In this document: positions 11,217-36,118 of the stretch, in pieces
Layout of the letters: every line of letters starts with the position of its first letter
Position numbering within the stretch: the first letter of the stretch is position 1
NCBI GenBank assembly: GCA_020073585.1
Contig: JAIQEV010000041.1
Span: 1 to 36,118, forward strand
Reading direction: 5' to 3'
Source: Terriglobia bacterium
GTDB lineage: Bacteria > Acidobacteriota > Terriglobia > Acidiferrales > UBA7541
Length of the DNA stretch: 36,118 bases
Program-made: the position numbers and the translations under genes
Notes under the pieces: model-generated
Database searches by the model: none
What the model was told of the DNA's origin: nothing
What the model saw: only the letters and a program-made list of their open reading frames with translations

Positions 11217-11229
11217 GACAGGACAATTG

Positions 11230-11250
11230 GTAGGGGCGGTGGGGATCGAA
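11230..11250 (-). repeat. tRNA-Lys 3'-end fragment (outermost att scar)
   Basis: These 21 bases are identical to the 3' end of the tRNA-Lys gene at 34957-34977 and to the fragment at 27816-27836, all in the same orientation. On the minus strand they run from the T-loop (TTCGATC) through the acceptor end (CGCCCCT). The next three bases inward (TTT) are shared with the 27816 copy but not with the tRNA gene (CCC), as expected for element-derived sequence at two left attachment sites. Confidence 0.8.
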
Positions 11251-11649
11251 TTTACCCGAACACTGAATCCAAAGGAACTCCTTGGAACGCGTTGGACTCG
11301 TAAGTCATTTGTTGTTCGTATGCGGAACTGCTATTGCCCCCGGATTGTCCCCGCGTTTTCATGCTGTCTTTTCCACAAGCAAGACCATCCGAACGACTTT
11401 GCTATTTGCTTTTCGCAACGCCGATAATCAGCTACAAAAAATGAAAATGTGTCGCGCCAGAGCGAAAATAATTTGATTGGGTCTGAAATTCCGGGGATCG
11501 TGGCCAACTGCTGTGCTGGAATCTCCGGATCGCTTTGCACAGTGGGAGACAGGTGCATTCGTTCCTAGACGCGCCGAGAGGGATGTGATTGGGGGTGAAG
11601 TGCTCTTCGTGTCGGTGTGGTAACTCGGTGGTAAGAGTACTAAATGGTT
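11251..11649. other. Intergenic region, no gene seen
   Basis: This ~400-bp stretch is AT-richer than its neighbours, especially 11380-11480. It contains AAGGAACTCCTT (11272-11283), a short palindrome, but no reading frame with a credible start and composition. It may hold decayed sequence from the inner edge of the att scar. Confidence 0.4.
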
Positions 11650-15454: not shown

Positions 15455-18400
15455 ATGAGTGAGGATCGGAAGTGCGATAAGCAACTCGAAAGCTCCGCGC
15501 AGAAGCATAGGGTTGACCGCAGGCAGTTCATCCAGTGGAGTTCGCTGGTGGCGGGATGGGCGGCCCTGCCCGCGCATGTGGACGCGCTGACCTGGGCGGA
15601 TGCGTCCGCTACTCCCGCGAGCGGCGGCTCGGGTTCCGCCCTGACGCCGACGCTGCTCGATGATGGAGGACTGCAGGCCGGACGCCTCGGCTGGGAATTC
15701 GGCGAGGGTTGCCGGATTATCGCCGCGGCGCAAGCTCCCAGCCCCAAGGTGCTGCACGTCCGGCACCGCGGCAGTTCCTCGGTGCGGGCCATCATTCTTT
15801 CTCCGATACAGGGCCGGACGTACACTCTCCACGGGTTCATGAAGACCAGCGGCGTGACTCCCCTCGAACCGGGCGGCGCCGCCGTAATGTCCATCAATCA
15901 ATTCGAATTTCAAGGGCGTCCCGTCGGACTCCACAACTTCGCCGTGCTTACCGGCGAGCACGACTGGACTCCCTTTACCTACACTTTCGTTTGCCAGCCG
16001 CAGGTCATCTGGTTCGAATTGTCGCTGGGGCTGTTCCGCGCGGAAGGCGAGGCCTGGTTTGCCGATTTGACGCTGGTGGAAGGCCCCGCCGCGAAGACGC
16101 TCTCCGAGGTCATTCCGCGGGAAGAAGAGCCCGGCTACCCCGCGCCCCAGCGCAAGGGTCTGCCGCACGTGGCCATCCTGCGCGACCGCCTTCCCGCGCA
16201 GGGCACGCCGTCCGATCCGGAGGCCATCGGCTCCCTGCTCCAGGGCGCCGGTTACCCGGTCGAATACCTCACGGCGGACCAGCTCTCCGATCCGGCGCGC
16301 TTCACGCGCGAGAAGCACGACATCCTGGTCCTGGGCTACGGCGCGACATTTCCGGCGCCGGCGCAGAAAGCGCTCGAGAGTTTTCTGAGCAAAGGCGGAA
16401 GCTTTTTCTCCACCGGAGGCTATGCCTTCAACAATCCCGTGCTCCAGACCGGGAGCGGCTGGGCTGCGGAGATGGACGCGCTCGCCGCCGATCCGGGAAC
16501 GGAACTGCTTCGCGAGAGCGCATTCGACGGCACGCTCGCTGCTTGCCGCGCCGCGGGCTGGAAGCTCAATAACCCGGAGTATTGCTCGCTCGATTCCACG
16601 CAGAAGCATCAGGGCAAGCAGGCGGCAGCGGTCTCCATACCGGAAGATGGCTGGTGGAAGGGCGCCGCATGGGAGTACGAAGTCAGCGGGATGCAGGACC
16701 GCGACCGTTTTGTCTTTTCCTGCTGGGCCAAAGTGGAGAACGTGAGCGACCGCTTCGACGGCACGGCCTACGTCAATCTGGAGCAACTGGATGAAGACCG
16801 CGCCTCGATCTTCGTTTCGAAAATCGAGGTCGTCGAGTTGCGCGGCAGCACCGGCTGGCAGCGCTACGAGCGCATGACCGTCGCCTCTCCGCAGACCAAA
16901 TACATTCGCGTCTCCTTCGGCCTCAAGCGGACCTCCGGAAAGCTCTGGGTGCAGCAGGTCAGCCTGCGCAAGAAGTTTCCCGAAATCCGGATCAACACCG
17001 CGAAGGGTTTCCCCAACGACGAATTGCGCGTAACGCCCGAGCAGATCGGCGTCTTCGATGCCGATTATCGCTTGAACCGCGTCTCCTACCTTGCGGCCGC
17101 TCCCGGGCAGGAGATCGTCAAGGGTCCGTACCGGCTGAACGCTCCCGCAACGGGCTACGCCGCCAGTGGCGTGCTCGGCCAGCACAACGCCCGCTGGACG
17201 CCGCTGCTCAACGCCTATGACGGTTACGGGCGTCTGCGCGGAGCCGCCGGCGCGCTGATGCGCCACTATAACGGCGTCTACCGCAAGAGCCACTGGGCGT
17301 TTTTCGGCGTGGAAAACCGCGACCTCTTCCCTGCCGGCGATCCCGCCGCCCGCGCCCTGCTGCTCGATATTTTCGACGCCCTGCGCCGAAAGACCTTCCT
17401 GCACGAGGTGCAGACCGAATACGCCTCCTACCGCCAAGGGGAGAGCGCGCGGTTCTTCACGCGGGTGAGCAATTTCAGTTGCGAAAGCCGCAAACTTACC
17501 GTCCAGGCCGGCATATTCGCCGAACCCGGCAAAAAGCCCGCGTATCACCACGCCCAGGTGATCGAAGTTCCCGCGGACTCGACGGTGCGCTTCGAATTCG
17601 GGTGGAGTCCGGAGAGTTTTGCCGGCCGCAGGTACGAGGTCCAGGTGGTCCTGGAGGAGGCCGGCCGGCGGCTGGACCAGGTCGCGACCGGCTTTCTGGT
17701 GTGGGATGAGCGCGTGCTCCGCGATGGCTTCCCGCTCAAATACGCCGACAACTATCTGCGCGCCAACGACCGTGCCGTCTTCCTGCAGGGCTCGGACGAC
17801 TACATTTATGCCCTGCTCAACCGCTTCGAAAACCCCAAGACCTGGTACCAGGACATTTCCAAATACCGCGACCATTTCCTGCTGGTCTACGAAAACCTGC
17901 TGGGCAGCCGCGGCCTCGACGACGTTCCGCCGGAAACCTGGTGGCGCAAACTGGACGCCATCCTGCAGATCTGCCAGGAATGCAAGATGGTCTTTTTCCC
18001 GGGGCTTTTGATCTTCGGCGACACCGCGGTGGAGAATGCCGACCTGAAGCACCAGCAGGAGTTCTGCAAGGCCTTCGCGAAGCGCTACGGCCTCAGCTCC
18101 GGGCTGATCTATTACCTGAATGGCGATCTGCGCCTGCGCAATCCCGACCTGCCCGACCTGCGGCAGATCTTCAACGACTACCTCCGCAAGAAGTACGGCG
18201 ACGAGAAGCGGCTGCGCGAGGTCTGGACCGACTCCCCGCCCGCCGAGGCGCTGGGCTCGATTCCGCCGCTGGGGGGAACCGACCGCTGGCATGACATGCG
18301 CACGGCGGACAATTTCTGGTTCCGCGTGGAAGTGGTCCGGCGCTGGCTGGATTCGCTGGCCGCGGCCATCCGCGAGGTGGACCAGACCCACCCCATCACC

Positions 18401-27815: not shown

Positions 27816-27836
27816 GTAGGGGCGGTGGGGATCGAA
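27816..27836 (-). repeat. Left attachment site (attL), displaced tRNA-Lys 3' end
   Basis: These 21 bases are identical to the tRNA-Lys 3' end at 34957-34977. The copy stops matching after the T-loop (GAATTT here, GAACCC in the tRNA), so it cannot form a tRNA. It is the displaced half of the original target site. Confidence 0.88.
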
Positions 27837-27918
27837 TTTGCGGTACATCTCATAAGTCCTGCTGATTCTGTTGCCCTTCTCCCTTCTGTACCCCCGAAAA
27901 TGCAGCTCAGAGGCCGCG

Positions 27919-27940
27919 TTTTGTGGCCTAGATGTGGCCA
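27919..27940 (+). repeat. Left copy of paired TGTGKCC arm-like repeat
   Basis: Two TGTGGCC units (TGTGGCC TAGA TGTGGCCA, preceded by TTT) lie about 85 bp inside the left attachment site. A near-identical block in the same orientation lies at 34897-34917 by the right end. Paired short direct repeats flanking the core are the form of tyrosine-integrase arm-type binding sites; that role is inferred. Confidence 0.55.
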
Positions 27941-27961
27941 GTTTCCGAGAGCGAGGGAACG

Positions 27962-28633
27962 ATGAAAGCGACGCAGGCAATCACTCTGCGCGTTCCCTCT
28001 GGCTGGCAATCGCTTGGCTCAGCGGACGTGCGTTCGATGCTGGCCGATTATCTGCAACGTCCGACACCGAATCTTCCCGCCGATCCGGGGCCGGGCGATG
28101 CCCGGCTCTCTCTCTCCCTCCCCGCGCGCGCCGTCAAGGTTGTCTCGGCGCTCCTGAACGAAAACGAAACCGCCGCGCTCCGCCGCATCATTGCGGCATC
28201 GCGTGGGCTGCCTTCTACAGTGCAGGGGCATGCGCTTCTGATTGAACGGCCTCGCCCGCGCGTGATTGACGTGCAGCCGGAGAAGCCTCGCGCCTTGCTT
28301 CCGGCTTCTGGCGACGGGCCTCCGGCGGGATGGGAGCCGCGAGCTGATGCCGAGTGGCGGCGAACGATCTGGGCCAATTACCCGCCCGAATATAAGGCAC
28401 GGCTCCTCGGCAACGCTGTGCCGTCCCCAAAGCCGAAGCCTCAGCGCGTCAAGGCTCCCCCGGAGCCGCTGCTTGCTCACCTGTGGGCCTGTGCTCCGTT
28501 GCGGATTCTCTTCCTGGCGTTTGTTGCGGTGATCTTCCTGGCGGTCTATTCCGGCGGTGCTCCCCGGCGCGTCTCCGATTCGCCGGAGCCGAAGCCTGGG
28601 CCGCGCTTCCGCCCGTGGAGTCCCAAAACATGA
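27962..28633 (+). CDS. Single-pass membrane protein of the element
   Basis: No family is recognised. The 223-residue product has a soluble N-terminal part (1-165, with a Pro-rich segment around 105-165) and one clear transmembrane segment near 183-200 (ILFLAFVAVIFLAVY). A short Pro/Arg-rich tail follows; there is no signal peptide. GAGGGAA lies 5 bases before the ATG at 27962; an in-frame ATG at 27932 has less support. The stop overlaps the ATPase start as ATGA, so the two proteins are probably made together. A membrane partner for a P-loop ATPase fits a DNA-translocation, extrusion or packaging role, which is inference. Confidence 0.7.
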   Translation: MKATQAITLRVPSGWQSLGSADVRSMLADYLQRPTPNLPADPGPGDARLSLSLPARAVKVVSALLNENETAALRRIIAASRGLPSTVQGHALLIERPRPRVIDVQPEKPRALLPASGDGPPAGWEPRADAEWRRTIWANYPPEYKARLLGNAVPSPKPKPQRVKAPPEPLLAHLWACAPLRILFLAFVAVIFLAVYSGGAPRRVSDSPEPKPGPRFRPWSPKT

Positions 28634-29304
28634 GTGAGATCCAAAACGTTATCGTGTGTTTTGCGGGCCGCAAGGGGTCAGGCAAGAGCACGGCTCTACG
28701 CCGCGTGCTCGAACACTGCCCGCGCTTTTTTCTGTTCGATATAAACGGCGAGCACGGCTGGATTCCGAATCGCTTCGGGCGCATGGCCGACGTGGAGCAA
28801 TTCCTCGCCTGGGGCGAAACGCAGAAATGCTTCGCGGGTTCCTACCTGCCGTCCCGGGACATGCCCGCCTTCTTCGCCCAGCTCTGCAATCTGGTCTACG
28901 CGCACGGGCGGTTGACGTTCGCAGTGGAGGAAGCCCCCGAAGTGTGCAGCGCGGCGTCCCTGCCCGATGCCTTCAGCGTGTGCATCCGGCGCGGGCGCCA
29001 TCGGCGGCTGAATCTTGCCTGGACGTGCCAGCGGCTTGCGGAAACGAGTATCACGCTGCGCTCCCAGACGGACTACTTCGTGATCGGCTCTCAGGCCGAG
29101 CCGCGCGATCTGGACGCCCTGGCCGAGCGGTGCGGCCGGGAAGCGGCGGAGAAGGCCGCTGGCCTGGGCCTGCACGGCTTCCTGGTCTGGGATGTAGTGA
29201 ACAGGCAGGAAGTGCCCCTGGAAGCCGTCCGCGCAGCCTTGGCGGGCGTTCCTGACGGCTCCCGCGTCCTGGCAGGGGCAGGAAGCCGGGCGGGGCAAGT
29301 TTAA
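28630..29304 (+). CDS. P-loop ATPase, HerA/packaging/Zot-like
   Basis: The 224-residue NTPase has Walker A AGRKGSGKST (12-21), Walker B LTFAVEEAPEV (95-105) and a motif RGRHRRLNLAWTCQRLAE (121-138) that matches the sensor region of FtsK/HerA-type motors (TQRP-like). DNA-packaging ATPases of membrane-containing tailless phages and inovirus Zot proteins share this layout. There is no transmembrane helix, unlike most Zot proteins; the upstream membrane protein may supply the anchor. The frame is open upstream, but ATG 28630 in the ATGA overlap starts a normal N-terminus. Assignment to one ATPase branch is not possible by eye. Confidence 0.75.
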   Translation: MSEIQNVIVCFAGRKGSGKSTALRRVLEHCPRFFLFDINGEHGWIPNRFGRMADVEQFLAWGETQKCFAGSYLPSRDMPAFFAQLCNLVYAHGRLTFAVEEAPEVCSAASLPDAFSVCIRRGRHRRLNLAWTCQRLAETSITLRSQTDYFVIGSQAEPRDLDALAERCGREAAEKAAGLGLHGFLVWDVVNRQEVPLEAVRAALAGVPDGSRVLAGAGSRAGQV

Positions 29305-29336
29305 GGGCTTCCTTATGCCTTAGCGGAAAGTTGCAC

Positions 29337-29383
29337 TGTGACTGTGACTGTGCCGGGAATTGTGACGGTAGCTTTTTGTCACA
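29337..29383 (+). promoter_or_regulatory. Cluster of TGTGAC repeats
   Basis: TGTGAC occurs at 29337, 29343 and 29361 in direct orientation, with inverted GTCACA at 29378-29383. The last two face each other across 11 bases like a dimer site. The same hexamer (GTCACA, 30731-30736) lies in the divergent promoter region at 30.7 kb. This gap precedes the winged-helix genes. It may be their operator or a replication iteron. Confidence 0.4.
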
Positions 29384-29417
29384 ACGCAGAAAAGAAAAGC
29401 GATTGCAAGGTTTTGCC

Positions 29418-29726
29418 ATGCGCAGGGAAAACGCAGAGAAAGTTATGACAAAAGCTAAGACACAGGGAAAGCGTGGCCGTTTCGCAGCTTATAATGCGCG
29501 GAAACGGCAGGCGCTTGAGCTATTCGAGCGGCGCGGCTGGCTGAATCCGGCGGCCTGGGCGGTCCTGGCCGGGTTCTACCCGATCCGGGCCAGCTACAGC
29601 TACCTGGGCAGGCTGCACAGGTGGGGCCTGCTCTCGCGGCGGCTGGACGCGCGGGGGCTCATTCTCTATCGGCTCAGTGAGCGGGGCCGGGGGCGGCTGG
29701 CGTGGCTCAATCGGAGGCGGGGATGA
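29418..29726 (+). CDS. Winged-helix-like DNA-binding protein 1 of the element
   Basis: The 102-residue basic protein has a core LFERRGWLNPAAWAVLAGF, YPIRASYSYLGRLHRWGLL and ILYRLSERGRGRLAWL that looks like a winged helix-turn-helix with a wing around SRRLDARGLILY. No named family is recognised. I start at the ATG at 29418 (GCAAGG upstream); MTKAKTQG at 29445 is an alternative. The stop overlaps the next gene as ATGA. It probably regulates or assists replication of the element. Confidence 0.6.
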   Translation: MRRENAEKVMTKAKTQGKRGRFAAYNARKRQALELFERRGWLNPAAWAVLAGFYPIRASYSYLGRLHRWGLLSRRLDARGLILYRLSERGRGRLAWLNRRRG

Positions 29727-30157
29727 AAGCTTTGTTGGTCTGCATGGGGGCGCGCAGGCTCAAGGCGCTGGAGATTCGGCGCGCGCAGTTCGCCGTGCTC
29801 GCCGCGGTGGCTGGGCTTGTGCCGGTCGCTGGTGATTTGGAAGGCCGTGCCTCCGGCCTTCTCTCGGTGGAGCAGATTGCCGAAGCCGCGAATATCCCCC
29901 TTGAACAGGTGCGGTGGGTGTTGGTTTTCTTCCGCACCTGGCGCGTGCTCTGGTTGCGCCTGGGCAAGACGGGCGGCGTAGAGGTGCGATTCCAGAGGCG
30001 CATAGTGGTGGGCTTGCTTGCAGCACAGCGAGTAGTTCCCTTGGAGGTTAAGAAGCTCTTGGCGGCGCATCGGCGGAAGCGCGAGGCTATCGCGCCGCGC
30101 CGGAAGGCGGTGCTACTACAAGGTTCATCAGAGCAGTTTTCGGCTGCTTCTTTCTGA
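29723..30157 (+). CDS. Winged-helix-like DNA-binding protein 2 of the element
   Basis: The 144-residue protein has a central helix-turn-helix (about 45-75: GLLSVEQIAEAANIPLEQVRWVL) and a basic C-terminus (AAHRRKREAIAPRRKAV). No family is recognised. GGAGGCGGGG precedes the ATG. It overlaps the previous gene by four bases; its last ~70 bases overlap the end of the opposite-strand gene at 30087-30719. Tandem small winged-helix proteins suggest an element-specific control switch. Confidence 0.6.
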   Translation: MKALLVCMGARRLKALEIRRAQFAVLAAVAGLVPVAGDLEGRASGLLSVEQIAEAANIPLEQVRWVLVFFRTWRVLWLRLGKTGGVEVRFQRRIVVGLLAAQRVVPLEVKKLLAAHRRKREAIAPRRKAVLLQGSSEQFSAASF

Positions 30158-30719
30158 GGGACTTCAGATGCGCGGGCATTGGTCCGATGTGGCGCAGTGC
30201 GTTCCTTAGGCTTGAATGGTTTTCCTTTGCGGCCTGCTCTACTACATCAGTCCAGATTCTTTCTCCTTCGCTCTCTTCAAAGAGCTGGATGGCTCTCTGG
30301 TGGATTCTGCACTTGTTTTCAGGTGTCAATTTTCCGCTGCCTTTATGTCTCCCCGCAGGCATAGGATCGAGTTTTTTCGCTACCTCTGCATTTTTGGTAA
30401 TTATTCGACGCGCTGTACCTAGGAAAGTCTGGCGAATCCTTTTGTACTCGCCGGGCTGCGAGTTCTGGCCGAGGATCAAACCCCCTTTGAGAAGGTGTGC
30501 AGGAAGGGCTTTATAGATTTGTTCAAAGAGGCCGGGGCGTAGTTCCTCTGGAAGCTCCTCACGTCGCATTTTTGAGTAAGGATGCCCCTTACTGAATTCC
30601 AGCGGTCGGATCTTCCCCTTTTCCATGTAGACCGGGCCTAGGTGTGTGTGTGCAGGGGTATGCTTTTTGAGTTCTTGGACGGTCTTGCCGTGTCGTTTCG
30701 CTGCTTCCTTTAGTTTCAT
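30087..30719 (-). CDS. Hypothetical basic protein, the only minus-strand gene of the element
   Basis: The 210-residue product is basic and largely helical, with no recognised domain. Notable segments are EAAKRHGKTVQELKKHTPA near the N-terminus and RIHQRAIQLFEESEGERIW in the second half. The frame is unlike a mirror shadow: it extends about 560 bases beyond the plus-strand gene and has AT-leaning third positions. Its 3' end overlaps the plus-strand gene tail-to-tail by 71 bases. It faces away from the 30787 gene across a short divergent region with GTCACA, so it might be a repressor or lysogeny-type factor. The ribosome site is weak. Confidence 0.5.
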   Translation of the reverse strand: MKLKEAAKRHGKTVQELKKHTPAHTHLGPVYMEKGKIRPLEFSKGHPYSKMRREELPEELRPGLFEQIYKALPAHLLKGGLILGQNSQPGEYKRIRQTFLGTARRIITKNAEVAKKLDPMPAGRHKGSGKLTPENKCRIHQRAIQLFEESEGERIWTDVVEQAAKENHSSLRNALRHIGPMPAHLKSLRKKQPKTALMNLVVAPPSGAAR

Positions 30720-30786
30720 TGCCAGTAATTGTCACATCTATTCATCGAAAAGTCTACCTGGGATACTGACCTGGAAAGGGGGCGCT

Positions 30787-30963
30787 ATGCGACACATCTT
30801 GACGAAGGCGGAGAAGGTTTCCGGTCTGAAAAAAGCGATTGCCTCGCCCCGGACGCCAAAACATCTGAGGGTGTATCTGCGTGCACATCTTCGGAAGTTG
30901 GAGGGGCGCGGGCAAGGTAGGCGGGGTAAACCCACCAGTTTTCTTGGCTGGTTGAGTCTGTGA
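30787..30963 (+). CDS. Small basic protein (58 aa)
   Basis: The product begins MRHILTKAEKVSGLKKAI and has a basic helix (TPKHLRVYLRAHLRKL). GGAAAGGGGG lies close upstream of the ATG and a terminator follows directly after the stop, which supports a real short transcript. It could be a DNA- or capsid-binding peptide; no family is recognised. Confidence 0.5.
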   Translation: MRHILTKAEKVSGLKKAIASPRTPKHLRVYLRAHLRKLEGRGQGRRGKPTSFLGWLSL

Positions 30964-30973
30964 AAAAGAAAAA

Positions 30974-30997
30974 CCCGGCTCAGGTCGCCGGGCTTTT
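30974..30997 (+). terminator. Intrinsic terminator
   Basis: CCCGGC (30974-30979) and GCCGGG (30987-30992) form a stem with a 7-base loop, followed by CTTTTC and preceded by AAAAAGAAAAA. It separates the small basic gene from the zinc-ribbon gene, whose ribosome site begins right after it. Confidence 0.7.
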
Positions 30998-31012
30998 CGG
31001 AGGAGATGAAAA

Positions 31013-31222
31013 TTGAAAGCAGCAAAATCAGTATTAGCGAAACCCTACAGGAAGTCAACCCCGGAAAAGAAAACTACGGTGCTGGAATCAGCCGGGCGTG
31101 TGCGGGTCACGCGCCAGTTGGAAGCGTTCACGTGCGCCGAGTGTCACGGCCATTTTTATGTGGACAGTTGGGGGCGGGCGAAGGCGTGTCCGTGCTGTGG
31201 GCGGCCAGAGGTGAACCAATGA
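31013..31222 (+). CDS. Zinc-ribbon protein with TTG start
   Basis: The 69-residue protein has two cysteine pairs, CAEC (about 45-48) and CPCC (about 60-63), spaced as in a small treble-clef or zinc ribbon, after a basic N-terminus. The TTG at 31013 sits seven bases after GGAGGAG, better placed than the ATG at 31006 that opens another frame. The stop overlaps the next ATG (ATGA). It might bind DNA or partner with the replication protein. Confidence 0.6.
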   Translation: MKAAKSVLAKPYRKSTPEKKTTVLESAGRVRVTRQLEAFTCAECHGHFYVDSWGRAKACPCCGRPEVNQ

Positions 31223-31860
31223 AAAAACTTGCAGCATTCTCCATCGTGATTGCCTTGGCGGCGCTCCTGGCCGTCCTCAAGCCAGAGCGGTCCGTCCAGG
31301 CGCAGCTACCAACACAAATCGAGCTTCCCTGTCCTGCAGGATTTTATCCGCTGAATCCTGGCGGGCAGACGATCAACGGCAACACCGGAAAGTTTCGGCA
31401 ATGGCTTTGCGCGGATGCACAGGGGAATGTGTTCGGCGCACTTGCGGCAGGTTCGACAATCGGCGGCGTAGTTCCAACGCCAGTGTCAGTCAATCCTCTC
31501 GCTGTGAATCGCATTAATGCAAGTCTGGGCACGGCGCTAGTTGCGGCAGACTTCGCACTCTCCGCAGGGTGGGGAAGCACGGCCACAAAAAATAACATTA
31601 TAGGAACAGACCAAGCCTGGCAAATGACGGTCTTAAGTCAGGGCGCGGGAATTGCGGCTAGTCCCACAGTCACACTCACGTTCAAAGATGGCACATGGAC
31701 AAATTCCCCGATCTGCATTTCTAAACTCGTTGGTGGAACAGGAGCACTCGGAACAATTGTTTCCGAGGCAACTACCGCAACGACTTACACACTCAACTAC
31801 ACTCTGACTCCGAGCGCGGGATTGACGTACCAATTTTCAGCCGTGTGCATGGGCCGATAA
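31219..31860 (+). CDS. Secreted beta-rich protein, phage receptor-binding-like
   Basis: The 213-residue product has a clear signal peptide (KKLAAFSIVIALAALLAVL, cleavage likely after VQA), a short segment with CPAGFYPLNPGG, and a Gly/Thr/Ser-rich beta domain (about 90-213). The latter includes LSAGWGSTATKN, ASPTVTLTFKDGTW and the final LTYQFSAVCMG. This pattern of Gly-Trp-Gly, TVTLTF and terminal VCMG resembles head domains of tail-fibre or minor-coat proteins from memory; I cannot name a family. Export through Sec would suit a filamentous-phage-like adsorption protein or an exclusion factor. AGAGGTGA precedes the ATG. It lies directly before the replication gene. Confidence 0.65.
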   Translation: MKKLAAFSIVIALAALLAVLKPERSVQAQLPTQIELPCPAGFYPLNPGGQTINGNTGKFRQWLCADAQGNVFGALAAGSTIGGVVPTPVSVNPLAVNRINASLGTALVAADFALSAGWGSTATKNNIIGTDQAWQMTVLSQGAGIAASPTVTLTFKDGTWTNSPICISKLVGGTGALGTIVSEATTATTYTLNYTLTPSAGLTYQFSAVCMGR

Positions 31861-31863
31861 GAA

Positions 31864-33543
31864 ATGAGACTCCCTCCCCCGCTCTCCGCCCGAGAAATAA
31901 AGGCCCACGCCGACCTGGCCGCGATTGCCGGCAGGTACACGCGACTGCGCCGGGCCGGGCGCCAGTTCATCGGCCTCTGCCCGCTGCACAGTGAACGTCA
32001 CCCGTCATTCTACGTTCACCCGGAGCGGCAGGTCTGGTTTTGCTTCGGCTGTCAGTGCGGCGGCGACGTGTTCGATTTTGTGATGCTCGCCGAGTGCTGC
32101 GATTTTCGCCGGGCGCTACAAATCGTCGCCGAATTCTCCCAGGGGGAAGCGAGCGGCAGTGAACCGCGAAGCGGTTCACGATTTGCCGCGAGCGAGGGGG
32201 ATGGAATCCCCCAGGCCCGCGCAGCGGGCCTCCCCTATAGCCAGGACAGTCCAGGCGCTCGCGCCCGCATCCTGGCGGCACTCGATGCGGCGGATCGGCG
32301 GCTGCGTGCAATCGAGGCCGTGAACCGCGCGGCATCGTCGGCGATGGCTACGGACTGTGAACCGGAGCGCGGCGGCTCCCTTTTGCTGGTGCCGGAAGCT
32401 GTCTGGCATGACGCTTCGTTTGTGTCGAAGCGCGAACGGGAGAGGAATCTTCGCTTCGCCCGTAAGCGGCGCGGAGGGGTTGATGTTGGTGGACAGTTCT
32501 GCTCGCCGGAGCGCGAGAGCGATTTGGTGCGCGAGCGGCCAGCATTGCAGCGTCAAAAGCGAAACCGTAAGCCGGGCGATCCGTCGCGGGCAGTGCCGCT
32601 GGCTTTCGATGAGCGCGGCGATTTTGTCGAGCCTCTGCGTGGGCAGATTCCAGAGCGGCAGGCGGAGCAGGCACGTCTTTTGCTTGAATTGGGGCTGACG
32701 GGTAAGGCGCGGCGGCAGGCATGGTGCGGCCTCATTGGTCGGCGACGGGACTGCTTCTCCGGCAATTCTGAGCACAGGTTTTATACACCGTGTTTTTGTG
32801 GCAATCGCTACTGTCCGACGTGTGGGCCGAAGTCCTTCCGCGACTTGTTCACTCACCATTCGCGGCTGCGCCCGTTGGTGGAATCCCTGTTGAGTCATCG
32901 GTCTGACGATCATCGGGAGCGCGTTCTGGCGAAGTTGGACATTACGACGCGCAACGTCGGCGAGATGCCGACTGCGGAAGAGGTTCGCCAGTTCAACAAG
33001 GATATTCGCAGGTTCTTCCGCGCAATCGAAAGAGAGTTCGGAATCTCGCGGCGTGACTACGGGGTTTTGTGGTGCTGCGAATTTGGAAGCGGCAACACAA
33101 ATTTGCACGCGCATGGGGTCTACGCCGGGCCACGCCTCCCTCAGAGGAAGCTATCGCGTATCTGGTCCGAGATTCGCACGGATGGTTCCTTCATCGTCTC
33201 GATTAAGGAAGCACATTCCTTCGAAGCCGCGCTCGGCCATGCGCTGAAGTACCCGTCTAAATTTTTCAACGCGGCTCCGGCGCGACTTGTTGAATTGGAA
33301 GTTGCATTTGACCGCGTGCGTCGTGTGCACGCTCTCGCGGCTTTCTACAATCCGAAAATCGAGCGCGAACCGGGCGAAGAGGGGCCTGCCGAAGCTGGGC
33401 ATTGTCCGATTTGCGGCGATCTGCTACTCGACGCTCCGGGCTATCACTTCATCTCCGATCTACAGCGTGAAGGTCGCCGCGATGTGGACGCAGTTCGCGT
33501 TGATGTTGCTCGCGCGAGGGTTTTTGGGGAGTCCCCGCCATGA
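31864..33543 (+). CDS. Replication protein: CHC2 zinc finger joined to HUH rolling-circle nuclease
   Basis: The 559-residue protein starts with a DnaG-type CHC2 zinc finger (about 10-95: CPLHSERHPSFYVH, CFGC; ligands C39, H42, C60, C63). A variable linker follows (about 96-300). Then comes a Rep nuclease region with a CxC-x4-CxxC zinc motif (C310, C312, C317, C320), an HUH motif HAH (H415, H417) in NTNLHAHGVYAG, and a candidate nicking tyrosine Y463 in HALKYPSK. CPIC at 514-517 adds another metal site. It would nick one strand at the origin, and the CHC2 part might help prime the lagging strand. Three back-to-back palindromes lie inside the linker coding sequence. Its stop overlaps the ATG at 33540. 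Confidence 0.8.
   Translation: MRLPPPLSAREIKAHADLAAIAGRYTRLRRAGRQFIGLCPLHSERHPSFYVHPERQVWFCFGCQCGGDVFDFVMLAECCDFRRALQIVAEFSQGEASGSEPRSGSRFAASEGDGIPQARAAGLPYSQDSPGARARILAALDAADRRLRAIEAVNRAASSAMATDCEPERGGSLLLVPEAVWHDASFVSKRERERNLRFARKRRGGVDVGGQFCSPERESDLVRERPALQRQKRNRKPGDPSRAVPLAFDERGDFVEPLRGQIPERQAEQARLLLELGLTGKARRQAWCGLIGRRRDCFSGNSEHRFYTPCFCGNRYCPTCGPKSFRDLFTHHSRLRPLVESLLSHRSDDHRERVLAKLDITTRNVGEMPTAEEVRQFNKDIRRFFRAIEREFGISRRDYGVLWCCEFGSGNTNLHAHGVYAGPRLPQRKLSRIWSEIRTDGSFIVSIKEAHSFEAALGHALKYPSKFFNAAPARLVELEVAFDRVRRVHALAAFYNPKIEREPGEEGPAEAGHCPICGDLLLDAPGYHFISDLQREGRRDVDAVRVDVARARVFGESPP
32159..32231 (+). repeat. Three consecutive perfect hairpins inside the replication gene
   Basis: GTGAACCGC/GCGGTTCAC (32159-32179, 9-bp stem), GGGGGAT/ATCCCCC (32196-32212, 7-bp stem) and AGGCCCGC/GCGGGCCT (32213-32231, 8-bp stem) each have a 3-base loop. 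They encode residues about 99-122, the start of the poorly conserved linker. They could form the double-strand origin or a single-strand origin, or be an in-frame palindromic insertion. Confidence 0.8.
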
Positions 33544-33791
33544 CGCGAACGCTGAAACAATTCGCGGGTGGCACGCTTCCCGGCGACGGGAGCAACGGCG
33601 AGGTGTCTGTGGTGCGCGCTGAGAATCAATCCGGCGAGCAAAAGTTCGGTCTTTCTTCCTTCCCCCCGGTCTCCGCGCTGCTCTCCGGGGGATCGGGAGT
33701 ACTCTGCGGGGGCAATTGCGGGGCTTCTATTACGCCTAAGTGTGATACCGTCCCGGCTCAAGGGCAACGAGTCAGCGGGCCAGAGGTAAAA
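33540..33791 (+). other. Open leader in frame with the integrase, with hairpin
   Basis: An ATG overlapping the replication-gene stop (ATGA at 33540) opens a frame that runs without stop into the integrase, adding 84 residues of low-complexity sequence (GGTLPGDGSNGE, GGSGVLCGGNCG). A hairpin CCCCCGG/CCGGGGG (33663-33691) lies within it. It could be a coupled N-terminal extension, a separate leader, or a regulatory spacer whose frame is open by chance. Confidence 0.4.
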
Positions 33792-34949
33792 ATGGCTCGC
33801 AGACGTTACCAGAAAGGATGTATCCGCCGTAGGGGCAATCAATGGACTCTCCGTTGGCGGGAAGATGTTGTACTCGCTGACGGAGCTACGAAGAGGGAGC
33901 AGAGAACGACGTTGCTCGGCACGGTCGAGGAATTCGCTACGAAACGGCTGGCAGAGCGGGAAGCTACGGCTTTTCTCGCTCGCGTCAATCGTCTCGACTA
34001 TCGGCCAGTGAAGCGGGCGACGTTCGCGGAGTTCTCCGAGAGCTGGAAGAAACAGGTGATTGACCTGCTCAAACCTTCGACGGCTAAGGTCATGGCGTCG
34101 CATCTGCGTTTTCATCTTGTCCCGGCGTTCGGTCGAATGAGGCTCGATGAGATGGGGCAGGAGCAGATGCAGGCGTTCGTCGGCAAGCTGGCGAAGGGGC
34201 GGAGTCGGCACACGATTCTAAACGTTCTCGGTACTCTGGCATCTGTTCTCAAGATGGCGCGAAAGTGGGGCTACGCAGTGGCAGGATTCCAGCAAAGCGA
34301 TCTTGTCATGCCGTGCTCGAAGCCGGGCAAGCCTGGACGGTTTTTCACGGCGGAGCAGGCGCGTTCGATTCTCGCGCTTGCTTCGGAGCCGTGGCACACG
34401 ATTTTCGCGCTTGCTGCTATGACGGGGCTTAGACCGGGCGAAGTTCTCGGACTCTCGATTGATGATCTGGACTTCGAGCAGCGGTTGATTTTTGTCCGTC
34501 GCTCGGCCTGGTATAGCCATCTCATCTCGCCGAAGAATGCTCGCAGTGTGGCGACGGTGCCGATGCCTGGGCCTCTGGCCGAAGTGCTGACAAACTATCT
34601 CGCGTCATGGCGTCCCAACGAAAAACGGTTGCTGTTCTCGAATCGCCGGGGCAATCCCTACAGCGAGAACAAAGTTGTACAGAAAAGGCTCTGGCCAATT
34701 CTGGACGCACTCTCGATTCCTCGCTGTGGGATGCACGCATTCCGGCATGGGCACGGAAGTCAGATGCATTCGAGTGGTGCCTCGTTGAAGGTTACACAAA
34801 CTCAGTTGCGGCACGCTGACGCGAGCACCACGTCGCGGTATTATCTTCACGTGATCGGCTCAGAGCAGCGCGACGCAGCAGAGAAAGTAGCCTGCATTTT
34901 GTGTCCAGATGTGGCCAAGTCTGAAAGGAAGTCGGTGCATGTCAACTAG
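33792..34949 (+). CDS. int: Tyrosine site-specific integrase
   Basis: The 385-residue phage-type integrase has an N-terminal arm-binding part (MARRRYQKGCIRRRGNQWTLRW), a SAM-like core-binding domain (about 75-160) and a catalytic domain (about 180-370). Catalytic residues are visible: Arg in AAMTGLRPGEVLGL, Lys in SPKNARSVATVPM, HxxR in HAFRHGHGS, His in LRHADAST and the nucleophile Tyr in TSRYYLHV. AGAGG five to eight bases before the ATG at 33792 supports this start, although the frame is open to 33540. It ends 8 bp from the attachment core in tRNA-Lys, so it almost certainly inserted the element there. The last codons overlap a TGTGKCC arm-like repeat. Confidence 0.94.
   Translation: MARRRYQKGCIRRRGNQWTLRWREDVVLADGATKREQRTTLLGTVEEFATKRLAEREATAFLARVNRLDYRPVKRATFAEFSESWKKQVIDLLKPSTAKVMASHLRFHLVPAFGRMRLDEMGQEQMQAFVGKLAKGRSRHTILNVLGTLASVLKMARKWGYAVAGFQQSDLVMPCSKPGKPGRFFTAEQARSILALASEPWHTIFALAAMTGLRPGEVLGLSIDDLDFEQRLIFVRRSAWYSHLISPKNARSVATVPMPGPLAEVLTNYLASWRPNEKRLLFSNRRGNPYSENKVVQKRLWPILDALSIPRCGMHAFRHGHGSQMHSSGASLKVTQTQLRHADASTTSRYYLHVIGSEQRDAAEKVACILCPDVAKSERKSVHVN
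34897..34917 (+). repeat. Right copy of paired TGTGKCC arm-like repeat
   Basis: TGTGTCC AGA TGTGGCCA, preceded by TTT, matches the block at 27919-27940 with one substitution and one 1-base gap, in the same orientation. It is 40 bp from the right attachment core and inside the last codons of the integrase gene. Confidence 0.55.
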
Positions 34950-34956
34950 TTGCATA

Positions 34957-34977
34957 GTAGGGGCGGTGGGGATCGAA
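34957..34977 (-). repeat. Right attachment site (attR) within tRNA-Lys
   Basis: This is the copy of the 21-bp core that forms the functional 3' end of tRNA-Lys: acceptor strand, T-stem and T-loop. The element therefore restored the tRNA on insertion. Confidence 0.88.
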
Positions 34978-35029
34978 CCCACGACCTTCGGCTTAAAAGG
35001 CCGCTGCTCTACCACTGAGCTACGCCCCT
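34958..35029 (-). tRNA. tRNA-Lys (anticodon UUU)
   Basis: The 72-nt minus-strand gene folds as a normal cloverleaf: acceptor AGGGGCG/CGCCCCT, D stem GCTC/GAGC, anticodon loop CTTTTAA with TTT at 34-36, T stem GTGGG/CCCAC with loop TTCGATC, and discriminator A. The CCA end is not encoded. One base pair at the top of the anticodon stem (27-43) is a G-A mismatch. Its 3' end is supplied by the mobile element. Confidence 0.95.
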
Positions 35030-35117: not shown

Positions 35118-35465
35118 TCAGGCGAACTGCTGGACGAGGCGGCGTTTGCGCTGCCAATCGTGATCTTTGCGCAGGCGCGCCTGATGTTTTTTCACCTGTT
35201 CCGCGAGGTCGCGGAACGCCTGTTTGCAACTGGCGCGCACGTCGCTGCCGGTGCCGGTGGCGTGCAGGGTGCCCGTGGGCAGCTTCAGGTTCAGGGAAAA
35301 GGAATGCTCGCTGTTGTGGAGATTCCTGGCAAACACACCGTGGATGTGGACGGCATCGGACGGATAACACTTCAACAGCTTACTCAGCTTGCCGGTGTAC
35401 CGGCCGATCTCTTCTTCGACAGGCTGGCGTGACTGGACGTACTTGTAGCTGATCGAAATGTTCAT
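35118..35465 (-). CDS. hpf: Short ribosome hibernation promoting factor (HPF/RaiA family)
   Basis: The 115-residue protein of the S30AE/RaiA family binds the 30S decoding site in stationary phase and blocks translation. The N-terminus (MNISISYKYVQSRQPVEEEI) and the segment DLAEQVKKHQARLRKDHDW fit the beta-alpha-beta-beta-beta-alpha fold. It lacks the C-terminal dimerisation domain of long HPF. A GAAAAGGTGCGTCC-like leader (AAAAGGTG) supplies the ribosome site. It lies just outside the element beside tRNA-Lys. Confidence 0.88.
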   Translation of the reverse strand: MNISISYKYVQSRQPVEEEIGRYTGKLSKLLKCYPSDAVHIHGVFARNLHNSEHSFSLNLKLPTGTLHATGTGSDVRASCKQAFRDLAEQVKKHQARLRKDHDWQRKRRLVQQFA

Positions 35466-35667
35466 GGACGCACCTTTTAGAGAGAGGAAAAGGAAAGAAC
35501 GCTACGCGGCTGGAGTGGCAATACCGCATTGCAGGGCGAGCATAGCAAGGCGCGGGCGCGGAGGCAATCGCCAGCGGGGACCAAGGTTCCAGAAGGTTGA
35601 CAGCGCGCACGGGCATTCCCTACTCTGCTCGCAGGTTGGCGATCCGCAGCCCTTTCGGGAAACTATC

Positions 35668-36118
35668 TTGACCGCAACCCCGCAGCACTCCAAAGCCCTG
35701 ACCCCCGCGGAAGCGCGGCGCGTGCGCGTCGGCCCGGCGGGCTGGTCGTATCCGGACTGGGCGGGGTACGTCTATCCGGCGCGCAAGCCGAAAGGCTTTC
35801 ACGAAGCGGCGTATCTGGCGGGCTTTTTCGACGTCATCGAGATCAACACCTCGTTCTACCATCCCATCCGGCCGGAGCACGCGCGGCTGTGGATCGAGAA
35901 GGCCGCGGCGAATCCGCGCTTGGTGTACACCGCCAAGCTCTGGCAGAAGTTCACGCATGAGCCGGGCGCCACGGCGGAAGACGAGCGCGCGGTGCGCGCG
36001 GGCTTCGACGTGCTGCGCGAGGCCGGCAAGCTCGGCGCGGTCCTGCTGCAGTTCCCTTTCTCGTTTCACCGCACCGCGGAGAGCATCGCCTATCTCACGG
36101 CGCTGCTGGGGCGCTTCC
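35668..36118 (+). CDS. DUF72 (YecE-like) protein, N-terminal part
   Basis: The frame runs open off the window. It shows the DUF72 hallmarks VRVGPAGWSYPDW, then FFDVIEINTSFYHPIRPE, YTAKLWQKFTHE and LGAVLLQFPFSFH, a TIM-barrel family of unknown function. The proposed TTG start at 35668 (GGGA 9-12 bases upstream) gives a short polar leader of about 18 residues; there is no in-frame ATG upstream, so a different start codon remains possible. Confidence 0.85.
   Translation, partial: MTATPQHSKALTPAEARRVRVGPAGWSYPDWAGYVYPARKPKGFHEAAYLAGFFDVIEINTSFYHPIRPEHARLWIEKAAANPRLVYTAKLWQKFTHEPGATAEDERAVRAGFDVLREAGKLGAVLLQFPFSFHRTAESIAYLTALLGRF

Follow-up and report, generated by a model that had tools for sequence, protein, structure and literature searches.

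A finger and a predicted nickase in one frame

Can a single protein carry both the zinc finger of a bacterial primase and the nickase of a rolling-circle replicon, and if so, what would the finger do there? The window, that is the whole stretch of 36,118 nucleotides analysed here from a draft genome of a Terriglobia bacterium, raises this question with one gene close to its right end. The sequence-only reading had placed a DnaG-type CHC2 finger and a Rep region in a single continuous frame, and the frame is open over its entire length (Table 1). The ligands C39, H42, C60 and C63 are found where they had been proposed and Pfam agrees on the family, with PF01807 matching residues 10-93 at 86.4 bits (cut-off 24.9, E 1.2e-24). 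The best solved relative of the finger by sequence is the primase of B. stearothermophilus (1d0q, E 4.4e-19), and the finger part of the AlphaFold2 model aligns with 1d0q (Z 14.2) and 2au3 (Z 13.9). With PADLOC, the finger also gave weak matches to defence models of the reverse-transcriptase type, including one with the name DnaG-like.

We rejected the idea that the protein is a primase in its own right, because the catalytic core is absent from its Pfam and NCBIfam matches. The NCBIfam dnaG model covers residues 9-93 only (86 bits, cut-off 283.6), and neither Toprim, nor DNAG_N, nor any AEP primase family appears among the Pfam matches of the protein up to E 1. A DnaG piece from the source genome does match DNAG_N (E 9.1e-26). 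As no primase catalytic domain was found, the fusion protein should not prime by itself. Besides the dnaG copy on contig C107, the source genome displays a second dnaG start at the end of another contig (L016, G000:C98:8816-9477), which may represent a paralogue or contamination.

Table 1. Coordinates of the fusion gene, its parts and the surrounding element in the window
Feature	Position	Strand	Basis
CHC2-HUH fusion protein	31864..33543	+	open frame, 559 aa
CHC2 zinc finger, residues 1-94	31864..32145	+	Pfam, fold match, conserved positions
Linker, mostly low-confidence, helix at 130-160; probable former gene boundary near residues 170-178	32146..32598	+	model, alignments
Rep part: Cys-rich segment and HUH nuclease core (about residues 350-500)	32599..33543	+	alignment, fold
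HUH metal motif H415-A416-H417	33106..33114	+	sequence, alignments
Catalytic-type motif Y463-P-S-K466	33250..33261	+	sequence, alignments
Left copy of 21-bp att-like repeat (copy of tRNA-Lys 3' end)	27816..27836	.	identical 21-mer
233-aa ORF, part of the element, no family match in Pfam or PHROGs	27932..28633	+	
P-loop ATPase, PHROG 2666 (named terminase large subunit)	28627..29304	+	E 1.8e-19
151-aa ORF, conserved in L012 (49.6%) and L014 (47.7%)	29702..30157	+	identity
Frame with small conserved ORF that recurs in five further Rep elements or loci	30646..30963	+	
Putative exported protein frame (C-terminal ~213 aa)	31006..31860	+	export judged by eye
Tyrosine integrase, overlaps end of fusion gene	33540..34949	+	PF00589, E 2.9e-22
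Right copy of att-like repeat, within tRNA-Lys	34957..34977	.	identical 21-mer at 27816 and 34957
tRNA-Lys(ttt), probable integration target	34957..35029	-	

The Rep part is a predicted HUH nuclease

HxH and tyrosine motifs are the family motifs of HUH replication initiators, and both had been claimed for the C-terminal region, as HAH at 415-417 and KYPSK around Y463. The claim holds on inspection of relatives. All nine Reps of an alignment that includes the window Rep (which begins there at residue 171, so that the positions read H245, H247, Y293 and K296) have H415, H417, Y463 and K466, and several cysteines of the Rep part are likewise invariant. The HxH and YxxK motifs stay invariant in a seven-row set containing the full fusion protein. 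Profile matches were weaker: PF23343 (REP_ORF2-G2P) on residues 373-465 reached 21.2 bits (cut-off 27.8) and PF01446 (Rep_1) on residues 305-389 reached 16.3 bits (cut-off 33.2). As both stay below their cut-offs, the HUH assignment relies on conservation and on the predicted fold.

The AlphaFold2 model of the fusion protein, built from a 14-row alignment, displays two confident parts separated by a mostly low-confidence linker at about residues 95-245. H415 and H417 lie in strand 414-423, and the second part resembles SIRV1 ORF119 (2x3g, Z 8.4), followed by the nuclease domains of parvovirus, geminivirus and AAV. A model of the Rep part alone (pLDDT 87.8), in which Y463 opens helix 223-227 in the numbering of that model, has the same best match (2x3g, Z 8.5, rmsd 4.1 Å over 110 aligned residues, 16% identity), then 3wrn (Z 7.4), 7vg8 (Z 7.0) and the AAV and geminivirus Reps. 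Ribosomal S6 appears from Z 6.0 downwards, which leaves HUH a modest margin; we discounted this and other fold matches that belong to neither the HUH nor the DnaG family, taking the arrangement they share to be a common one. Foldseek recovered nothing from PDB at E <= 0.001 with the Rep-only model. Among viral models, its named matches included primase or CHC2 proteins and several microvirus replication initiators; the latter presumably concern the Rep part (match ranges are not given).

We also wrote a pattern of the HUH motifs with these Reps in view, which accordingly recovers 15/15 of them, and it matched one of 391 background ORFs. False matches of the pattern are an amidohydrolase (L091) and the window frame 35458-36118. 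Fold and motifs taken together, the Rep part is very likely an HUH nuclease with predicted activity, and we are confident in calling the fusion protein an HUH initiator.

The gene sits in a small element at tRNA-Lys

The last 21 bp of the tRNA-Lys gene recur at position 27816, so the element spans about 27816-34956, roughly 7.1 kb. A search for an origin by inverted repeats upstream gave weak candidates and nothing convincing. Another stretch of 26 bp in the window (11228-11253) is identical to the region around the left att-like repeat, and 21 of these 26 bp are common to the tRNA-Lys end; it is chromosomal, beside a DUF2950 gene, and is perhaps a trace of another integration.

Some of the neighbouring genes recur in relatives. 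The P-loop ATPase (PHROG 2666, head and packaging) is common to two loci with this Rep family, the window and L020 (23-595), and this may mean that small phages are among these elements. An inovirus, recognised in the description of PMC6813254 by a pI-like ATPase that has one or two transmembrane segments and Zot as its nearest Pfam domain, was rejected, as no Zot appears among the Pfam matches of the ATPase (28627-29301) up to E 1. The putative exported protein shares 43.6% identity over 78 aa with an apparently exported protein of L011 (14134-15039), and the two could be spike or coat-associated proteins. A small conserved ORF (in frames of 50-105 aa) precedes Rep in six elements or loci, with the relatives of the window copy at L011:11004-11156, L012:9964-10173 and 15906-16088, L018:1091-1273 and L020:2026-2286. 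By eye, a similar small gene precedes Rep also in L040, L041 and L104.

The Rep family itself (Rep1) is rare. It was found in 4/95 genomes of the order and 8/399 genomes of the class, the source genome counted in both, and in 3/396 genomes of the phylum, namely the source genome and two weak, partial matches. The named records among the relatives (four loci) belong to Acidobacteria or Terriglobia. Direct repeats of 21-48 bp, spaced by 7.3-8.8 kb, flank Rep in five loci (L011, L012, L014, L015 and L034), and tRNA genes are found at the edge of five (L011, L014, L018, L033 and L034). Genome G055 has two elements arranged head to tail (L012:6575-20000), which differ in both Rep and integrase. Phage and plasmid records contained no match for Rep1 or for the second Rep family described below. 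Viral contigs gave none with the window Rep alone and two with a four-row Rep1 profile; the Rep of L040 recovered there its own contig only, and the second family nothing. Two IMG/VR contigs of 17.8 and 32.5 kb carry Rep1 without a finger gene (L040:2954-4162 and L041:7689-8917).

Finger and Rep are neighbouring genes in two relatives

We asked whether the fused form is conserved. Twelve Rep1 loci had upstream DNA in view (the window, L011, L012 twice, L014, L015, L018, L020, L033, L034, L040 and L041); L035, whose upstream region is off the contig, and the weak phylum matches L038 and L039 were left out of this count. A finger is present in three of the twelve and fused in one, the window, and the other nine loci lack it. 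In L011 a separate finger gene (198 aa) stops 2 nt before Rep, and in L012 a separate finger gene (186 aa) stops 8 nt before Rep. A conserved fusion is thus rejected, the fused form being limited to one locus, in a draft genome, among the loci found.

The junction preserves some trace of how the two parts came together. The window Rep aligns with the L011 Rep from its first residues, which makes the Rep N-terminus complete across the junction. In the DNA alignment with L011, the stop/start region is missing from the window and the frame is changed; roughly 35-40 nt seem to be lacking there, a figure which is uncertain at this divergence. Judged from these alignments, the finger was probably once encoded by a neighbour gene and became joined when the stop/start region was lost. 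The sequence comparison extends poorly beyond CHC2: a common tail of the finger genes is weakly supported for the window and L012 (34/2000 shuffles reach the score) and unsupported for the window and L011 (1701/2000) or for L011 and L012 (1232/2000).

The sequence-only reading had associated separate genes in all relatives with a chance fusion. Its first half is borne out by L011 and L012, where the genes are separate and adjacent, and the second half fits poorly. It could be that the fusion is an accident or an assembly error, two neighbours joined in a draft contig without any new function, as its occurrence at a single locus and the separate genes of L011 and L012 would suggest. We consider this improbable, because the joined frame retains both folds, the key residues and the complete Rep N-terminus, and because recurrent pairing of finger and Rep makes the joining functionally sensible. 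GC content by codon position has no abrupt step at the junction, and we saw no sign of a frame artefact. Chance joining is unlikely also because a second HUH Rep family has fingers of this type just upstream of it (L060 and L089).

The pairing recurs with a second Rep family

L060 was reached by a finger search of 13 genomes and L089 by a finger search of 399. The finger gene of L060 (180 aa) and the Rep ORF downstream of it (294 aa) are 100 nt apart; in L089 the gap between the finger gene (292 aa) and the Rep ORF downstream (247 aa) is 215 nt. The two Rep ORFs are 65% identical, and that of L089 passes the cut-off of PF23343 (REP_ORF2-G2P; 32.4 bits, cut-off 27.8). Since Rep1 profiles had no match to either at E <= 1, we call them another family, Rep2. 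Given the likeness of both families to PF23343 (21.2 and 32.4 bits), Rep1 and Rep2 could be remotely related members of the HUH superfamily. Two of the four Rep2 loci have a finger (L060 and L089) and two do not (L104 and L105); a further match in G094 (L103, E 7.3e-4) is left out of this count.

The fingers and the Reps do not follow each other in their relationships. The finger of L089 is the closest to the window finger among the matches listed (60%), though its Rep is Rep2. Identity between the L012 and L060 fingers, both from G055, is 69% over 140 aa; related HTH (65%) and integrase (48%) genes also occur in both elements, while their Reps are of different families. Alike fingers beside unlike Reps indicate that finger and Rep were re-combined while staying neighbours. 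In a tree of 44 finger rows (one of which, L054, is a second copy of L012), with unsettled bootstrap and long branches, the paired fingers of L089, the window, L060 and L012 form a group with support 89/79, within which L012 and L060 are a clade at 100/100. The paired finger of L011 and the unpaired finger of L061 fall elsewhere; placement of fingers in this tree is poorly resolved.

To summarise conservation within the finger, we took the 37 positions with at least 95% constancy across 36 DnaG rows. Of these, 29 are retained in the window finger and 23-28 in each of the other four paired fingers. The unpaired L061 finger equals the window finger with 29/37, so conservation of DnaG positions does not mark the pairing.

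Considering gene order and sequence likeness, the finger with an HUH Rep appears to be a recurrent pair in such loci, and functional coupling of the two seems to us quite probable. We view the fusion as a single joining event within a gene pair that recurs, and it is this pair that deserves attention.

No HUH neighbour was found at the control finger loci

As a control we used 58 finger loci outside the five pairs, taken from the matches listed and including L061 and L090-L098. Most of the 48 loci that make up the sets of 40 and 8 are unusual frames picked from the finger matches listed, and in the 40-locus set the best finger ORF per locus was looked at. By the motif pattern, no HUH Rep was found on the same strand within 2.5 kb of the finger at any of the 58 loci, several of which end at contig edges. 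The sole pattern match was that of L091, which is an amidohydrolase by Pfam. The finger ORF had a Toprim-like match at 37 of the 58 loci, some of them whole or broken dnaG genes, and these 37 are probably primases or pieces of them. It had none at the other 21 (11/40, 7/8 and 3/10 by set). A general link between detached fingers and HUH proteins is therefore rejected, and the lack of an HUH neighbour at the control loci makes the pairing a trait of one finger kind.

Finger matches were obtained in 297 phage and 183 plasmid records. Among those listed (60 of 297 phage and 60 of 183 plasmid), no annotation reads Rep; the annotations are primase, primase/helicase, CHC2 protein, DnaB-like, toprim-domain and hypothetical, and many are unannotated.

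What the finger might do

At about even odds (roughly 0.5), we read the fusion protein as the replication initiator of the ~7.1-kb tRNA-Lys element, an HUH nickase with a DnaG finger that would aid host priming. In this scheme the element would excise, and the HUH domain would nick the origin and remain attached to the 5' end. The host would then extend and displace a strand, the tethered finger would dock on host DnaG, replacing or competing with the finger of DnaG itself, and primers for the complementary strand would be laid on the displaced strand of the element.

The part assigned to the finger is the less certain one. The DnaG finger is considered to mediate start-site recognition (PMC6163395). 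The sequence-only reading had proposed that the protein recognises priming sites, which it may do. PMC5429622 describes a DnaG finger that is tethered to the polymerase domain via hydrophobic contacts and salt bridges and works within a two-domain template site; in the same paper, the isolated finger of B. subtilis DnaG shows no ssDNA binding at all. This failure favours docking on the polymerase domain of DnaG over independent site recognition. To the idea that the finger steers host DnaG we give somewhat less than even credence. Rep does not need the finger, as seen from the loci without it (9/12 for Rep1 and 2/4 for Rep2).

The finger might instead be a specificity module for binding DNA or protein, serving in origin recognition, dimerisation or control of nicking, and unrelated to priming. 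Metal-binding modules would suit a Rep which has its own second, invariant set of cysteines, and the nine Rep1 loci manage without the finger. We regard this as unlikely, because the share of DnaG-constant positions kept by the window finger is above expectation for a generic zinc ribbon, and the finger partners two Rep families whose origins should differ. It could also be a decoy that interferes with host DnaG and slows the host or competing phages in favour of the element. The place of the DnaG finger in a two-domain template site is compatible with this, since a finger that is free or tethered to Rep could take its place, and the window finger is about as near to host DnaG (51-52% identity) as to the L011 finger (49%). 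Adjacency and fusion to an initiator point, however, to replication of the element itself, and a decoy seems to us about as improbable as an accidental fusion, perhaps marginally more so.

Under our preferred reading, in which the finger aids host priming, the pairing could be extended to a broader proposal, namely that in these Terriglobia elements a detached DnaG finger works in trans on the host primase and is dedicated to a rolling-circle nickase, to which it is joined in the window. We put this forward tentatively, as a rather unlikely generalisation. A single protein would nick the origin and then present the displaced strand, at selected sites, to host DnaG. Leading- and lagging-strand initiation, whose union the sequence-only reading had envisaged, would thereby be joined without the element carrying a primase. 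The title of Corn et al. 2005 reportedly raises the question of a DnaG finger acting in trans, and our proposal, if true, would show what a detached one can do.

Comparison with known systems

The domain composition differs from that of the DnaG zinc-binding domain (PF01807; 1d0q, 2au3) in what follows the finger. Ligands, fold and 29 of the 37 constant residues are the same; in DnaG the finger precedes DNAG_N and Toprim, whereas in the window it precedes an HUH nuclease. With the initiators of microviruses, SIRV1 (2x3g) and eukaryotic ssDNA viruses, the fusion protein shares the HxH and tyrosine motifs and a similar predicted nuclease fold. It differs from them by low identity (16% to 2x3g), and their listed matches name no primase finger.

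Proteins that join nicking and priming are described elsewhere. RepB' family primases occur joined to a relaxase domain, and RSF1010 has RepB' and MobA apart, as outlined in PMC5862659; some relaxases carry primase domains that help to convert the transferred ssDNA, according to the review PMC5714925. The fusion protein likewise has an HUH nickase and a priming-related part in one protein, with separate-gene versions too. RepB'-type proteins, in contrast, combine a whole catalytic archaeo-eukaryotic primase with a conjugation relaxase, and here a DnaG finger alone stands with a replication-type Rep. In the model systems treated in PMC5714925, rolling-circle Rep plays no part in making the complementary strand, a task that falls to the host. 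If the finger-Rep pairing functions, it would be a counter-example to a Rep-free start of the complementary strand and an element-coded handle on host priming. In the open-access literature we found nothing relevant on CHC2 together with rolling circle, HUH, inovirus or Rep; the one paper recovered concerns human genetics and is unrelated.

The fused, the Rep1-adjacent, the Rep2-adjacent and the finger-less forms provide a ready comparison set. CHC2-only families are known also from phages, and three of them, PHROG 18097, 360 and 2304 (named DNA primase), have profiles of 133-199 positions that match the window finger.
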